Positions 1 through 7,551 of a DNA stretch of 47,960 nucleotides are shown here, piece by piece. The stretch's first letter is position 1, and each line of letters begins with the position of its first letter. The DNA is taken from NCBI GenBank assembly GCA_020720115.1, contig DYPD01000010.1, positions 7,400-55,359 on the forward strand, in the 5' to 3' direction. This stretch comes from Thiomargarita sp. Lineage in GTDB: Bacteria > Pseudomonadota > Gammaproteobacteria > Beggiatoales > Beggiatoaceae. The position numbers and the translations under genes are program-made. A model generated the notes under the pieces. The model made no database searches and was not told the DNA's origin. It saw only the letters and a list, made by a program, of their open reading frames with translations.

Positions 1-46
1 GCCTTCTTTTTCGCCTTCTTTTTCGCCTTCTTTTTCGCCTTCTTTT
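1..46. repeat. 12-bp tandem repeat encoding EGEK units
   Basis: Three exact copies of gccttctttttc are followed by a shortened fourth. On the minus strand they encode (E-G-E-K)n in the tail of the HvfA-like protein. The array may continue beyond the left edge. Such an array is prone to slippage and to assembly error. Confidence 0.9.
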
Positions 47-273
47 GCACCGCCGCATTTGCCTTCGCCGCATTTGCCTTCCATATTTTTAGCATCTGGG
101 GCTGCCGCTTCGGTGGTTTCTGCGGCTGCCAGGTTCATATAACCCGCTCTCAACTCATTCATGCCAAAAGGATTGGCATCTGCTTGAGCAATAGCCGGCA
201 GAGTCAGACCGCCAACGCTCAGTGCAGCACTCACAGCCAGAGCCAGAGGGTTCTTTACGCTTTGCTTAGACAT
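1..273 (-). CDS. HvfA/bufferin-type EGKCG-repeat secreted peptide, partial (3' end outside window)
   Basis: The reverse strand from 273 encodes 91 residues before the window ends, so the C-terminus is missing. Residues 1-31 look like a Sec signal peptide, basic at first, then hydrophobic, ending AQA. A short [10 protein letters not shown] segment follows at 36-45, then two tandem EGKCG units (Cys68 and Cys73) and a run of EGEK repeats. This layout matches HvfA/bufferin precursors, in which Cys residues of EGKCG motifs are modified by an MNIO (DUF692) enzyme with a DUF2063 partner to make copper-binding heterocycles; that role is family knowledge. The start is well supported: GGAGG lies 8 nt upstream of the ATG. 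The modifying enzymes would be expected further along the same strand, left of the window. The gene diverges from cysE. Confidence 0.75.
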
Positions 274-402
274 GATTATAGCCTCCAAAATAATAGGGTT
301 AAGGGATTTACTGCTGGAAAAATTCTGCCTCAGTTAGCCGTAAAACACAAGCGATTTAGTCAGCCTCTTGCTTTTCCTGATTTAGCCATTAACATGCAAG
401 CC

Positions 403-1206
403 ATGTTTAAACGACTCCAAGAAGACCTTGCCTGCGTTTTTGCACGCGATCCCGCTGCCCGCACCCGTTGGGAAGTGGCATTAAATTATCCGGGCGTACA
501 TGCTATCTGGCTGCATCGTGTGGCACATGCCCTGTGGCAGCGACACTGGAAAGGGCTGGCACGGTTTATTTCGACTGTTAGCCGTTTTATAACTGGCATT
601 GAAATTCACCCAGGTGCGACCATCGGGCGGCGTTTTTTCATTGATCATGGCATGGGCGTAGTGATCGGTGAAACCGCCGTGATTGGTAACGACTGCACCC
701 TGTATCACGGCGTCACGCTGGGCGGCACCACCTGGCAAAAAGGCAAGCGCCACCCCACACTTGGCGATAATGTGGTGGTCGGCGCTGGGGCTAAAGTGCT
801 GGGACCAATCCTTATCGGCGACAATGCGCGGATTGGCTCTAATGCAGTGGTGGTCAAACCAGTACCGCCGAATGCTACAGTCGTTGGCATTCCGGGGCGC
901 ATTATTGAAGCCAACGAAACCCAAGATACCAACGAACGCCGCCAAGCGATTGCGAAGAAAATCGGTTTTGATGCTTACGGCACCGCCAATGACATGCCCG
1001 ACCCCGTTGCACACGCCATCAACTGTATGCTGGATCACATTCAAGCAATGGATAAACGCATGGATGCTATGTGCTACAGCATTCGCCAACTGGGTGTATC
1101 CATTGAAGAAACCGAAATTTTGCCAACGCTGACAGATTGCGAAATCCACAGTGGCGATTCAGTAAAACCCGACAACAGCTTGATTTCTAAACAAGAAACC
1201 CAATAA
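403..1206 (+). CDS. cysE: Serine O-acetyltransferase
   Basis: It transfers acetyl from acetyl-CoA to L-serine, giving O-acetylserine for cysteine synthesis in the cytoplasm. The N-terminus ([20 protein letters not shown]) is typical of CysE. The middle shows left-handed beta-helix hexapeptide repeats: [20 protein letters not shown], then [15 protein letters not shown] and ADN-like [13 protein letters not shown] turns. The protein has 267 residues, with a C-terminal extension of about 80 residues beyond the core. The open frame runs upstream to 184, but that part overlaps the divergent gene and its leader; ATG 394 is an alternative start and no strong ribosome site separates the two. It lies just before iscR, a common arrangement that couples cysteine supply to IscS sulfur transfer. 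Confidence 0.93.
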
Positions 1207-1296
1207 AATACTAGGGATAAATTTTGGCAGACATTCTTATAAAAAGTATCAGTTCATGCCATTTGATAAAGATAAACGCCCCTTAATTTTAAGAAA

Positions 1297-1329
1297 ATAC
1301 TTGACTATTTTTGTCAGGTACAGCATATT
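1297..1329 (+). promoter_or_regulatory. iscR promoter with a type 1 IscR-binding site over the -35 box
   Basis: A 25-bp stretch at 1297-1321 has the halves ATACTTGACT and GTCAGGTAC separated by an A/T run, close to the type 1 site that [2Fe-2S]-IscR binds at its own promoter. TTGACT (1301-1306) can serve as -35, with CATATT (1324-1329) as -10 at a 17-bp spacing. IscR binding here would block polymerase, which gives Fe-S feedback. The rest of 1207-1476 shows no convincing gene; a 76-codon frame there has no family features and runs into iscR. Confidence 0.65.
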
Positions 1330-1476
1330 CAGAACTGCTTACATCAAAAAAGCACAAGCGTTGCAATTGAGGCATTCGAGCATTTTAGCCATTGAGTCGC
1401 TAAAAATTGCACGCCTGCCAAGCAGCATAAACAGTTTTAACAGTACATTCAGGGCTTTGCAGCCAAAGGGGATGTT

Positions 1477-1962
1477 ATGCGATTAACCACAAAGGGTCGG
1501 TACGCAGTGACCGCCATGCTGGATTTAGCCATTAATGATCAGCAAGGACCTATCACCCTTGCCGACATTTCCAAGCGCCAAGGTATTTCTTTATCTTATC
1601 TGGAACAACTCTTTTCCCGCTTGCGTAAGCAAGGTTTAGTAGATAGCGCACGCGGACCTGGCGGCGGCTATAAACTCAGCCGTCCGGCTAATCAAATTGC
1701 AGTGGCTGAAGTCATTACCGCAGTGGATGAAACAGTAGACGCTACCCGTTGCAAAGGCAAACAAAATTGCCATAATTCTCATGAATGCCTAACCCATGAA
1801 CTGTGGACTGATTTAAGCAATCAGATTCATGAGTTCTTAAGCAAAATTACCTTAGCCTATCTGGTTGAAAGACGTGGAACAGTCACTTGCAAACATACCA
1901 ATCAGCAAGATGCCGCACACAAGCAAATGTCCAAAGAAACTATCATCAGTATCTCTGCCTAA
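1477..1962 (+). CDS. iscR: Fe-S cluster-responsive Rrf2 regulator IscR
   Basis: This 161-residue Rrf2-family winged-helix repressor carries a [2Fe-2S] cluster and controls the isc operon. The N-terminal helix-turn-helix ([18 protein letters not shown], then [15 protein letters not shown] and RGPGGGYKL) is intact. The cluster ligands fall at Cys92, Cys98, Cys104 and His107, the same numbering as the E. coli protein. AAAGGGG sits just upstream of the ATG. The promoter in front carries an IscR-type site, so autoregulation is expected. It is the first gene of the isc operon, with iscS starting 22 nt after its stop. Confidence 0.97.
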
Positions 1963-1984
1963 ATGACTGCTAGGAGCATCGTCT

Positions 1985-3199
1985 ATGAATATCCCCATTT
2001 ACATGGACTATTCTGCAACCACACCCGTTGATCCAAGAGTTGCAGAAAAAATGATGCACTACTTGACCCAACAAGGTAAATTCGGCAACCCCGCCTCGCG
2101 CTCGCACAAATTTGGTTGGGAAGCCGAAGCAGCCGTGGAAGAAGCCCGTCAACAGGTCGCTGATTTAATCCACGCTGATCCCAAAGAAATCGTCTGGACT
2201 TCAGGTGCCACCGAATCCAACAACCTCGCCCTCAAAGGCGTAGCACATTTCTACGGCAAACAAGGCAAACACCTCATCACCTGTAAAACGGAACACAAAG
2301 CCGTACTAGACACCTGTCGCCAACTTGAACGCGAAGGCTTTGAAGTCACCTACCTCGATCCCGAACCCAACGGCTTAGTTGATTTAAACAAACTCCAAGC
2401 CGCGATGCGTGATGACACCATCCTCGTTAGCCTGATGCACGTCAACAACGAAATCGGTGTCATCACCGACCTACAAGCCGTAGGCGAAATCACCCGCCCG
2501 CGCAAAATCCTATTCCATGTGGACGCAGCCCAAAGTGCAGGCAAAGTCCCCATCAACATGGAAACCATGAATGTTGACCTCATGTCCTTTTCCGCCCACA
2601 AAGCCTACGGACCCAAAGGCATCGGCGCTTTATATGTGCGCCGCAAACCGCGAGTACGCATCGAAGCGCAAATGCACGGCGGCGGACACGAGCGCGGAAT
2701 GCGCTCAGGCACCCTGCCCGTCCACCAAATCGTCGGCATGGGCGAAGCCTTCCGCATCGCCAAAGCTGAAATGGCAAGCGAAAATGAACGCCTGCGCCTA
2801 TTACGCGACAAACTCTGGAACGCCCTCAAAGACATGGAAGAAGTTTACATCAACGGCGATTTAGAACTCCGCATTGCCGGCAACCTCAACATCAGCTTCA
2901 ACTACGTCGAAGGTGAATCCCTCATCATGGCACTCAAAGACCTCGCGGTATCATCAGGCTCCGCCTGCACCTCCGCCAGCCTCGAACCCTCCTATGTGCT
3001 ACGCGCCCTCGGACGCAACGACGAACTCGCCCACAGCTCGATACGCTTCACCCTCGGACGCTTCACCACCGAAGCAGACATCGAATACGCCATCCCACTG
3101 ATTCGCAGCAAAATCGAAAAACTGCGCGCCTTATCACCACTGTGGGACATGTACAAAGCGGGTATTGACTTACACAGCATCCACTGGGATGCCCACTAA
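1985..3199 (+). CDS. iscS: Cysteine desulfurase
   Basis: This pyridoxal-phosphate enzyme removes sulfur from cysteine as a persulfide and passes it to IscU. At 404 residues it equals the E. coli IscS length. His104 (KTEHKAV) stacks on PLP, Lys206 ([12 protein letters not shown]) forms the Schiff base, and Cys328 ([20 protein letters not shown]) is the mobile-loop sulfur acceptor. The C-terminus ([13 protein letters not shown]...WDAH) is the usual IscU-docking tail. A TAGGAG motif precedes the start. It is followed by iscU after 42 nt. Confidence 0.98.
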
Positions 3200-3241
3200 T
3201 TTTCTCGCATCACGCAAAAATCCAAAATTAGGAGGTTTATC

Positions 3242-3652
3242 ATGGCTTACAGCGACAAAGTTCTCGACCACTACGAAAATCCCCGCAACGTCGGCAGCTT
3301 CGACGACAGCGACGACAGCGTTGGCACCGGCATGGTCGGCGCACCCGCCTGCGGCGATGTCATGCGACTACAAATCAAAGTCAACGAACACGGCATCATT
3401 GAAGATGCCAAATTCAAAACCTACGGCTGCGGCTCAGCCATCGCATCCAGTTCCTTATTGACCGAATGGGTACAAGGCAAAAGCCTAGACGAAGCCGGCA
3501 AAATCAAAAACACCGACCTAGCCGAAGAACTGGCATTACCGCCCGTGAAAATCCACTGCTCAGTGTTGGCAGAAAGTGCCATTAAAGCCGCGATAAAAGA
3601 CTATCAAAGCAAACATGGGATCAAAACAGAAGAACACGCGGTATCTGCTTAA
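3242..3652 (+). CDS. iscU: Fe-S cluster assembly scaffold
   Basis: IscU is the scaffold on which [2Fe-2S] clusters are built from IscS sulfur and iron. The 136-residue protein has the three cluster cysteines Cys37, Cys63 and Cys106 and the exchange-promoting Asp39. Residues 99-103, LPPVK, are the recognition site for the chaperone HscA, which is encoded downstream. A strong AGGAGG ribosome site precedes the ATG. The C-terminus (HGIKTEEHAVSA) is slightly longer than in E. coli. Confidence 0.98.
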   Translation: MAYSDKVLDHYENPRNVGSFDDSDDSVGTGMVGAPACGDVMRLQIKVNEHGIIEDAKFKTYGCGSAIASSSLLTEWVQGKSLDEAGKIKNTDLAEELALPPVKIHCSVLAESAIKAAIKDYQSKHGIKTEEHAVSA

Positions 3653-3655
3653 GGC

Positions 3656-3692
3656 TAACACCTTCTAGGTTGCTCAAACATAGAAGGTGTTA
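3656..3692 (+). other. 12-bp perfect inverted repeat in the iscU-iscA gap
   Basis: TAACACCTTCTA at 3656-3667 pairs perfectly with TAGAAGGTGTTA at 3681-3692 around a 13-nt loop. It starts 3 nt after the iscU stop codon and is not followed by a T run, so it is a weak candidate for termination. It could stabilise or process the iscRSU message, or mark the edge of the material inserted before iscA. Confidence 0.7.
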
Positions 3693-3765
3693 ATAGGCAA
3701 GCAAGGCTGTAAAAAATGTAGATAACTTACTCGCTAAACATGATTATCACCAAGATTTCTACGCA

Positions 3766-3960
3766 ATGCTTATGGCTATTAAACCTGTGGTTCAAATTAT
3801 AAAAATGACAGAACAAAAAAGTGATTTTGCATATTGGCAAACCCAACCTTATGAAAAACGCTTAGAAGCACTAGAAACCATCAGACAAGAATACAATAGT
3901 TGGAAGTATGGTATTCAACAAAGACTTCAAAGAGTTTATGCCATTACTCAACTTAAATGA
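3766..3960 (+). CDS. Small hypothetical protein, orphan of a nucleotidyltransferase-linked family
   Basis: The 64-residue frame contains SDFAYWQTQPYEKRLEALE, then IRQEYNSWKYG and RLQRVYAI. From memory this pattern (SDxxYW...RLxALExxRxxY...RLQRV) belongs to a widespread small protein usually found beside a nucleotidyltransferase gene in toxin-antitoxin-like pairs. No partner is present here: iscU lies on one side and iscA on the other. The start is uncertain; ATG 3772 and ATG 3805 are alternatives and none has a clear ribosome site. It looks like a recent insertion or a leftover of a mobile pair, and its activity is unknown. Confidence 0.6.
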   Translation: MLMAIKPVVQIIKMTEQKSDFAYWQTQPYEKRLEALETIRQEYNSWKYGIQQRLQRVYAITQLK

Positions 3961-3997
3961 AATCAAAGATAAAAATCTACACTGAGAGGTAATCAAT

Positions 3998-4321
3998 ATG
4001 GCTGTTACATTAACCGAATCGGCTGCCAAACATGTACAAAAAGCCTTAAACAAACGCGGCAAAGGCGTAGGCTTACGTCTAGGTGTACGCACTAGCGGCT
4101 GCTCTGGCATGGCATATATACTGGAATATGCGGATGATGTAGAAGAACACGATCAAATCTTTGAAAGTCACGGCATCAAAGTCATTGTTGACGACAAAAG
4201 CATGTTCTATATTGACGGTACAGAACTGGATTTCACCCGCGAAGGCTTGAATGAAGGCTTCAAATTCAACAACCCCAATGTCAAAAATGAATGTGGTTGC
4301 GGAGAAAGCTTCAACGTCTAA
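3998..4321 (+). CDS. iscA: A-type Fe-S carrier protein
   Basis: IscA receives or stores iron or clusters and delivers them to apo-proteins, especially for [4Fe-4S] formation. The 107-residue protein carries the HesB-family ligands Cys35 (SGCSGMAY), Cys99 and Cys101 (NECGCGESF). GAGAGG lies upstream of the ATG. It is separated from iscU by 345 nt that hold a hairpin and an orphan small ORF, wider than usual for this pair. Confidence 0.97.
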
Positions 4322-4346
4322 TCTTTTAGCTTGAAGCGACTTGATC

Positions 4347-4523
4347 ATGCCCACACAGTCTATTTTTCAAGCAAATCGGCGTTATTCATTCAGCGATTAT
4401 TTTAACTTACCCAATCCGCCTGAAGAAATTATCGCCGAATGGGGTTATCGGTTAACGCTAGATAATTTAAGTCTGCCTTTAGCACACACCATAGAACCTC
4501 AATTTTCTGAAGTCTTCGGATAA
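4347..4523 (+). CDS. Short hypothetical protein, probably an N-terminal remnant of a PD-(D/E)XK-like family
   Basis: This frame of about 58 residues (ATG 4341 or 4347) contains RRYSFSDYFNLPNPPEEII, then AEWGYRLTLDNLSLPLA, and stops soon after. From memory, similar sequence forms the first 50 residues or so of cyanobacterial and gammaproteobacterial proteins of about 200 residues with a restriction-nuclease-like core. The core is absent here, so this is probably a truncated leftover between iscA and hscB. It has no visible ribosome site. It may still be translated, as it ends only 6 nt before hscB. Confidence 0.5.
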   Translation: MPTQSIFQANRRYSFSDYFNLPNPPEEIIAEWGYRLTLDNLSLPLAHTIEPQFSEVFG

Positions 4524-4529
4524 CCACTC

Positions 4530-5051
4530 ATGTCTTTAACGCTTAATCACTTCCAACTCTTCAATCTCCCTGAAACTTTTGCAGTTGACAGCCTGATGCT
4601 GGCAGAAACCTTTCGAGAACTGCAACGCACTGCCCACCCTGATAAATTTGCCAATCGCTCTGATCAAGAACGCCGCCTAGCTATGCAACATGCCACGCAG
4701 ATCAACGAGGCATTTCAAACCTTAAAGCATCCACTGAAACGTGGGCAATATTTGTTGATGCTTAAAGGCATTGAAATGGATAGCCAGCAAGCATCGGCGA
4801 TGGATCAATTATTCTTGTTTGAACAAATGGAATTGCGCGAGAAACTAGAAAGCATTGCAAAACAAGCTGACCCTATGATGGCTTTAGAACAATTCATGGA
4901 TAGTATTGCACAAGGCATTGAAAAGTTAATCAACACATTAAATCATCAATTTCAACAAGCTGATTATGCTGCCTGCCAAAACAGCATTCGCAAGTTACAA
5001 TTCTTTTATAAATTGCAAGAAGAAGCCTTAAATTTAGAAGAACAACTTTAG
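4530..5051 (+). CDS. hscB: Fe-S co-chaperone, J-domain protein
   Basis: HscB brings IscU to HscA and stimulates its ATPase. The 173-residue protein has an N-terminal J domain with the HPD motif at 36-38 ([19 protein letters not shown]), followed by an [23 protein letters not shown] helix pair typical of HscB. The C-terminal three-helix region ([10 protein letters not shown]...) would bind IscU. The ribosome site is weak, which suggests coupling to upstream translation. HscA starts 8 nt downstream. Confidence 0.96.
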
Positions 5052-5059
5052 GAAACCTC

Positions 5060-6961
5060 ATGGCTTTATTACAAATCAGCGAACCCGGACAAACCCAAGC
5101 ACCGCACGAACATCGCTTAGCCGTCGGTATTGATCTTGGCACGACCAACTCCTTAGTGGCGACGGTGCGTAGCGGCATGGCGGAAACCTTGCCCGACGCG
5201 CAAGGACGGCATTTGCTGCCTTCGGTGGTGCATTATCGGCAGGATGACGCGCCTTTGGTGGGGGTTGAAGCGCAAGAAAAAGCCAGCCAGGACCCGCTGA
5301 ACACGATAGCCTCGGTGAAACGCTTGATGGGACGCGGCTTGCACGATGTCAAATCGGTAGGCTCTCGCTTACCTTATGATTTTATTGAGGAAACAGAAAC
5401 AGCCAAAGGCATGGTAAAAATCCGCACCGCCGCTGGTGCGTTAAGCCCCGTGCAAATTTCGGCGGACATTTTGCATGCGTTGCGCGACCGCGCTAGAACC
5501 TCGCTCGGCGGCGATTTGACGGGCGTGGTCATCACCGTCCCCGCTTATTTTGACGACGCACAACGCCAAGCCACCAAAGACGCGGCGAAACTCGCGGGCT
5601 TACAGGTGTTGCGCCTGCTCAACGAACCCACCGCCGCCGCCGTCGCTTATGGTTTAGACAAAGCCGCCGAAGGCATTTTCGCCATTTACGACTTGGGCGG
5701 CGGCACTTTCGACATTTCCATTTTGCGCTTGCAACGCGGCGTGTTTGAAGTGATGGCAACGGCGGGCGACTCGGCTCTGGGCGGCGACGACATGGATCGC
5801 GTGATTGCACAATGGATTATGCAGCAAGCGGGCATTGCCGAGGACGCGGAACACAAGCACATTCGCCAACTGCTGTCCATCGCCCGCGCCGCCAAAGAGA
5901 CGCTGACGGATCACGACACCGCCGCGATGCAACTGCAATTTGACAACGGACAACACTGGCAAGGACAACTCAGCCGCGCCCAATTTGACGAACTGATTGA
6001 CCCGCTGGTGCAAAAAACCCTCATGCCCTGCCGCCGCGCCTTACGCGACGCGGGGCTTAGCATTGCCGACATCCGCGAAGTAGTGATGGTCGGCGGCTCC
6101 ACCCGTGTGCTGCGGGTGCGTGCAAAAGTTGCCGAATTTTTCCAACGAAAACCGCATGTTGACATTGATCCCGATAAAGTGGTCGCCATCGGCGCGGCGA
6201 TTCAAGCCGACATTTTGGCGGGCAACAAACCCGACAGCGACATGCTACTGCTCGATGTCACGCCGCTGTCGCTCGGTCTTGAAACGATGGGCGGCTTGGT
6301 GGAAAAAGTCATCCCGCGCAACACCACCATTCCCGTCGCCAAAGCGCAAGATTTCACCACCTTCAAAGACGGACAAACTGCGATGGCGATTCACGTCGTC
6401 CAAGGCGAGCGCGAACTCGTCACCGACTGCCGCTCGCTGGCGCGTTTTGAACTGCGCGGCATTCCGCCGATGGTCGCAGGTGCGGCGCGGATTCGCGTGA
6501 CTTTTCAAGTAGATGCCGACGGCTTGCTCAGCGTTTCTGCACAAGAACAAACCACCGGCGCGTACAGCGAAATCACCGTCAAACCCTCCTACGGCTTAGG
6601 CGACAAAGACATCGAAACCATGCTGCGCGAAGCGATGGAAAACGCCAGCAACGACGCAGCGCGGCGGACTTTACGCGAGCAACAAGTCGAAGCGGATCGC
6701 GTCGTCAACGCCCTCAAAGCCGCGCTCAAAGCCGACGGCAAACATTTATTAAAACGCCGCGAATTTGAAACCATCAACGCCCGTCTTGATAAATTGTTAC
6801 ACCTCATGCGGGGAACAAATCCGCAGGCGATAAAAGCCGCCGTAGAAGAACTCGAACAAACCACGCGAGATTTCGCCGCACGGCGCATGGACAAAGCCAT
6901 TCAAAAAGCCATGCAAGGAAAAACGGTAAAAGAATTAGATGCAGAAATTGAGCAAAACTGA
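5060..6961 (+). CDS. hscA: Fe-S cluster chaperone, Hsp70 family
   Basis: HscA is the specialised Hsp70 that binds the LPPVK site of IscU and drives cluster transfer with ATP. The 633-residue protein has the nucleotide-binding signatures [12 protein letters not shown] (near 23-34), [15 protein letters not shown] and [13 protein letters not shown], then the linker [17 protein letters not shown] and a substrate-binding domain with a helical lid. GGAAAC precedes the ATG. Its GC content is visibly higher than that of the AT-rich genes behind it. Its stop codon overlaps the next start by 1 nt (TGATG). Confidence 0.97.
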
Positions 6962-7551
6962 TGGCATTCACTGATTTTAAATCTATTCAACAGGTTCAAG
7001 AAACTTTCAACATCAAATATGCTGAAGAAAATTATATTGAATTTGATGAGCTAGAACCTTCTCCAGAGTTTCTCAGCGAGTTTAATTTTAGTCGTAAACA
7101 TATTGATATTTTTGCTTCAGAAGCCTCGCGTTGTGAAAACGTGATTTATCCGATTATTCGAGATGTTTTTAAGCATTATGTTGCTTGCTACGCTTTATGG
7201 AGTCATAAAACATTATCTTATGATGCAATCTTGACAGGTATTCCTGATTATTTAATTACCTCTAAATCTGAACTGGGTAAAACCATGCTTGGTTTGCCGA
7301 TTGTGGTTTTAGTGGAAGCTAAACAAAATAATTTTTCAGAAGGCTGGGGACAGTGTTTAGCAGAACTGCTTGCCGCACAAAAAATCAATAAGGATGAGAG
7401 AAAAGCTGTACATGGTGTTGTCACCGATGGCGAATTTTGGCAATTTGGTAAATTGACTGTAGATACCTTTACGAAAAATGAAATGGTTTTTTCAATCAGT
7501 GAACTCAAGAGAATCTTTGGGGCTTTGAGTTTTATTATAAAAGATCATTGA
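6961..7551 (+). CDS. PD-(D/E)XK-like nuclease family protein, function unknown
   Basis: The 196-residue protein carries a spaced motif set typical of the PD-(D/E)XK fold: Glu59 (ASRCENVIYPII), Asp96 (TGIPDYLIT), Glu119-x-Lys121 (VVLVEAKQNNF) and Gln131 (GWGQCLAEL). These would form the metal site of a DNA nuclease. From memory, close relatives are common, unnamed proteins of cyanobacteria and gammaproteobacteria. It is AT-rich, unlike hscA, whose stop overlaps its start. It is followed by an EVE-HNH protein after 24 nt, which suggests a restriction-type pair. Enzymatic activity is inferred from the motif only; some members could be inactive or structural. Confidence 0.75.
   Translation: MAFTDFKSIQQVQETFNIKYAEENYIEFDELEPSPEFLSEFNFSRKHIDIFASEASRCENVIYPIIRDVFKHYVACYALWSHKTLSYDAILTGIPDYLITSKSELGKTMLGLPIVVLVEAKQNNFSEGWGQCLAELLAAQKINKDERKAVHGVVTDGEFWQFGKLTVDTFTKNEMVFSISELKRIFGALSFIIKDH

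Follow-up and report, generated by a model that had tools for sequence, protein, structure and literature searches.

The window analysed here comprises 47,960 nucleotides of a Thiomargarita sp. contig (C147:7400-55359, with window position 1 at contig base 7400). At its left edge it carries the 5' part of a minus-strand gene that almost certainly belongs to a complete hvfABC cluster, with an HvfA-type (EGKCG, oxazolin/captophorin) precursor, HvfB and HvfC, and with HvfX encoded elsewhere in the genome. The locus has the genes and gene order of this family, intact enzyme motifs and multiple Cys units, and the precursor cysteines very probably become copper-binding rings through the two enzymes encoded directly behind. 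The cluster is a new example of an already known and already surveyed family, an ordinary HvfABC(X) cluster: about 2,000 EGKCG precursors have been surveyed (PMC12452194), and to this family, surveyed at a scale of thousands, it adds one environmental member.

The precursor gene and the enzymes behind it

The minus-strand ORF at window positions 1-273 is real, with its ATG at 273-271 and EGEK repeats running to base 1. Its main features and those of its neighbours are as follows.

Window 282..286, minus strand: Shine-Dalgarno-like GGAGG, 8 nt upstream of the ATG, read from the sequence
Window 1..273, minus strand: first 91 codons of the hvfA-like RiPP precursor gene, which a 100-N scaffold gap interrupts at the window edge
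Window 181..273, minus strand: Sec-type signal peptide (MSKQ...AIAQA) with cleavage after AQA, judged by eye; relatives are similarly laid out
Window 139..174, minus strand: conserved post-signal block (NPF...L..GY) of 12 residues, from 72 precursors anchored on PF
Window 52..81, minus strand: first EGKCG pair, predicted MNIO targets; at least one Cys pair five residues apart occurs in 71 of 76 precursors
Window 1..42, minus strand: EGEK spacer, a 12-bp DNA tandem unit in 3.8 copies to the edge, running past the gap into further EGKCG units
C147:7092-7299, outside the window, minus strand: 3' part of the precursor gene, followed by hvfB and hvfC
C147:7070-6222, outside the window, minus strand: hvfB (MNIO), PF05114 340 bits, full length
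C147:6229-5480, outside the window, minus strand: hvfC, overlapping the end of hvfB by 8 bp; DUF2063 88 bits, NGO1945_C 112 bits
Window 394..1206, plus strand: cysE (serine acetyltransferase), divergent neighbour outside the cluster, hexapeptide-repeat Pfam match

Two observations show that the ORF did not arise by chance. Precursors in 19 other genomes match its first 77 residues (best E 4e-16), and the post-signal block is nearly invariant, with N kept in 67, L in 63, G in 71 and Y in 67 of the 72 precursors; P and F served as the alignment anchor. This block is possibly the segment that HvfC recognises. The portion of the precursor inside the window has no Pfam match. Neither a copper-responsive regulator nor a promoter was identified for the gene, and the sole sigma-70-like site before it (window 302-275) is not credible, since its -10 element overlaps the ribosome-binding region.

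The preliminary description, made from the window alone, had expected the modifying enzymes just outside it, with an MNIO gene within about 5 kb downstream. MNIO and DUF2063 genes are indeed next on the minus strand, and the MNIO gene starts only 21 bp after the precursor stop. Its product scored 427 bits against the NCBIfam HvfB cut-off of 360 and 261 bits against the BufB cut-off of 310; with the MbnB model it reached 43.7 bits, far below the cut-off of 325, and the partner gene encodes HvfC, so a methanobactin assignment does not hold. The MNIO could be aligned to 3BWW through HGLSL, DVNNIYVN, HIAGH, VDTHG and LLERDFN, with the family motifs kept. It also retains the RR at positions 13-14, close to the N-terminus, and ERDFN with D249/F250; in FonB, RR, D249 and F250 are named as substrate and catalytic determinants (PMC13097082), the two enzymes being compared here by motif and number rather than by alignment to FonB itself. 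The HvfC protein scored 304 bits with model NF050145 (cut-off 142) and matches 3DEE (E 1.7e-8). Compared with their same-genus copies, both genes are under purifying selection: hvfB shares 79% protein identity with its counterpart, at a pN of 0.12 and a saturated pS of 0.76, and hvfC has pN 0.22 with synonymous sites likewise saturated.

No DoxX gene is linked to the cluster. The genome's only PF07681 match lies unlinked on contig C10 and passes the HvfX-family model NF050144 (133 bits against 80). The known components of the pathway are thus encoded in this genome, and in the same-genus genome, too, hvfX is unlinked.

Past the gap, the precursor sequence scores 30.2 bits with the KCGExKCG domain model, above the cut-off of 19.5. 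With the HvfA equivalog model NF050188 (cut-off 95), the window part scored 17 bits and a reading joined across the gap, in which the protein is incomplete, scored 52; clear relatives standing before hvfB also fall below this cut-off (75 and 20 bits), and the model looks narrow. The precursor had been described beforehand as HvfA/bufferin-like. The first half of that label stands, and the second, taken narrowly as bufferin type 1 (BufA/DUF2282), does not: a search for PF10048 (DUF2282) across the genome gave no match, and the MNIO is under the BufB cut-off.

On the other side of the precursor gene, a divergent cysE-iscR-iscS-iscU-iscA-hscB-hscA-like run occupies window 394-6961 on the plus strand, its first start codon lying about 120 bp from that of hvfA; except for the hexapeptide-repeat Pfam match, these gene names were read from translations. 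A functional link between the hvf cluster and the cysE-isc genes was considered and rejected on weak evidence: none of 112 related loci, many short on that side and some of them duplicates, carries cysE, iscR or iscS. Downstream of hvfC, ORFs of 72 and 330 aa have no homologue beside related clusters.

Proposed chemistry and role

The chemistry, export and copper role proposed here are drawn from characterised relatives. The precursor would be synthesised in the cytoplasm and docked by HvfC (RRE/DUF2063), and HvfB would use an iron cluster and O2 to oxidise the Cys of each KCG unit to 5-thiooxazole (-4 H per unit). The modified peptide would then leave via its Sec signal, bind Cu(I) in the envelope and buffer excess copper. 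In the characterised systems, HvfC is a required RRE-bearing partner, and HvfB turns the cysteines of Lys-Cys units into 5-thiooxazoles, using O2 and a mixed-valent diiron cluster, to yield a product that binds copper (PMC13097082, PMC13419390). The published products of this cluster type are 5-thiooxazoles (PMC13097082).

The same cluster and chemistry could instead serve copper acquisition, or a response to another metal or to oxidative stress. The literature leaves the metal specificity and physiological role of EGKCG products partly open (PMC13097082), and the copper detoxification role of characterised relatives is supported but not settled (PMC13097082, PMC13419390). However, the 5-thiooxazole products characterised so far bind Cu, their pathways are often switched on by copper in excess, by gold or by oxidative stress (PMC13097082), and under copper stress bufferins improve growth (PMC12452194). 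We therefore consider a role other than copper detoxification unlikely.

Spacers, related precursors and the assembly gap

An MNIO scan of named genomes gave 80 loci, mostly gammaproteobacterial with some from Nitrosomonas, the nearest being from Thiomargarita and Thiotrichaceae. EGKCG-type precursors could be read from most of them, many with the same layout and placed ahead of hvfB. Those of two same-family genomes are identical to those of named records (L094 = L004, L086 = L005), which probably puts the organism in the Thiotrichaceae/Beggiatoaceae neighbourhood. The 76 distinct precursors have medians of 7 KCG units and 122 residues. Within the window's own family, the KCGExKCG domain scored over its cut-off in 9 of 43 genomes.

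Some of these loci depart from the common plan. Two HvfA-like precursors (L099:1153-1686 and L105:1270-1686, both minus strand) have two EF-hand motifs set within the EGKCG array and flanked on either side by Cys units; this arrangement differs slightly from the published EF-hand type, in which the EF-hands are fused C-terminally to a short EGKCG part (PMC12452194). In another genome of the same family, an 11-unit EGKCG precursor (G006:C146:77454-77858, minus strand; L095, L113) lacks any hvfB or hvfC match over about 4 kb around it; the sole MNIO of that genome lies on contig C88, pointing to modification by an unlinked maturase. Two further genomes have a second MNIO (G001:C16:6399-7184 and G010:C11:698813-699598) with a DoxX-like gene nearby that scores below the HvfX cut-off; these loci are perhaps a separate, bufferin-type cluster.

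Set against the other precursors, the window precursor has a single individual trait, its long E/K/G spacer. Its longest pure E/K/G run is 16 residues, compared with at most 10 in the 75 others; its largest Cys-to-Cys spacing, 25 residues, is not extreme, spacings of at least 25 occurring in 17 of the 76. The spacers of relatives vary freely in length and sequence, and in the same-genus relative an unrelated KEAAEKGKEAAKEAAEKG segment precedes the Cys units. In a same-family precursor (L090:1249-1692, minus strand), about 80 residues with a Met- and Lys-containing insert lie between EGKCG pairs. Most likely, the EGEK stretches act as flexible spacers that separate the Cys units, and fast turnover through slippage of the 12-bp unit would be their simplest account. 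That the long E/K/G spacers are an adaptation rather than the product of neutral slippage seems very unlikely; if they were, they might act, for example, as an alternating-charge linker that holds the Cys units apart, limits aggregation on copper loading or adds weak carboxylate metal sites.

The left edge of the window coincides with a scaffold gap of exactly 100 N (contig bases 7300-7399) that falls inside the precursor gene. Past the gap, the precursor frame continues for 68 residues, with four more EGKCG units and E/K/G-rich spacers, to a stop at C147:7092; the nominal gap does not keep the frame, and the automatic ORF call reads nonsense beyond it. The repeats making up the array are EGEK (12 bp), EGKCG (15 bp) and a compound unit of 66 bp. 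The 55 nt adjoining the gap are identical on its two sides, which looks like the k-mer overlap left where a de Bruijn assembly broke at a repeat. A join at this overlap yields a reading of 141 aa with six EGKCG units; since sequence is missing from the middle of the precursor, the real protein is possibly longer, the number of units between the edges is not fixed, and an interruption within this middle part is conceivable.

The two sides of the gap might also be different genes, or wrongly scaffolded, given that they share repeats only and that the gap is nominal and out of frame. We regard this as highly improbable: the 55-nt ends are identical, the repeat vocabulary is common to both sides, the precursor stands directly before hvfB as in relatives, and a single EGKCG locus and a single MNIO were found in the genome. 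A precursor variant with two Cys units only, ending in a long acidic/basic EGEK tail, is scarcely credible: within the window alone the ORF does run into EGEK repeats, but the window edge is an assembly gap and the frame goes on beyond it through the four EGKCG units to a stop 21 bp before hvfB.

The reading we prefer is thus one continuous multi-unit precursor. The preliminary description had taken the EGEK array to replace further Cys units and to form an unusual tail; it is a spacer, followed by at least four more EGKCG units, and the apparent tail is a truncation artefact, since the window begins at the gap and the EGKCG units continue past it. Short-read assemblies break at repeat-rich RiPP precursors, and odd tails at the ends of contigs or windows need to be checked across the gap.

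Likeness to known systems

One of the systems compared is bufferin 1 of Caulobacter vibrioides, with which the cluster has in common an MNIO and its DUF2063 partner, an exported Cys-containing precursor and, from the literature, 5-thiooxazole chemistry; in contrast to bufferin 1, the genome here has no DUF2282 precursor and its MNIO is below the BufB cut-off. With the Buf_EGKCG/oxazolin precursors (PMC12452194) it shares EGKCG repeated in variable number, MNIO-DUF2063 neighbours and an origin in Pseudomonadota. The 17-residue repeat described for that group is irregular here, with EGEK stretches bringing the spacing between neighbouring Cys units to up to 25 residues.

Fontiphorin (FonABC, Fontimonas thermophila; PMC13097082) likewise comes from a minimal ABC cluster without a linked DoxX gene, and has KCG units and the RR and DF enzyme residues. 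Its spacer sequence differs, and FonA is reported with seven modified Cys (PMC13097082). Oxazolin (HvfABCX of nontypeable Haemophilus influenzae; PMC13419390, PMC13097082) shares with the present cluster the signal peptide, the EGKCG pairs, the HvfB MNIO, HvfC and an HvfX-family gene in the genome. Compared with oxazolin, the cluster described here has E/K/G-rich spacers between its units and an unlinked hvfX, and it comes from an environmental Thiotrichaceae/Beggiatoaceae-type bacterium and is known from its genes alone. Oxazolin HvfA has six Cys units, the same number as the overlap-joined reading of the precursor here.
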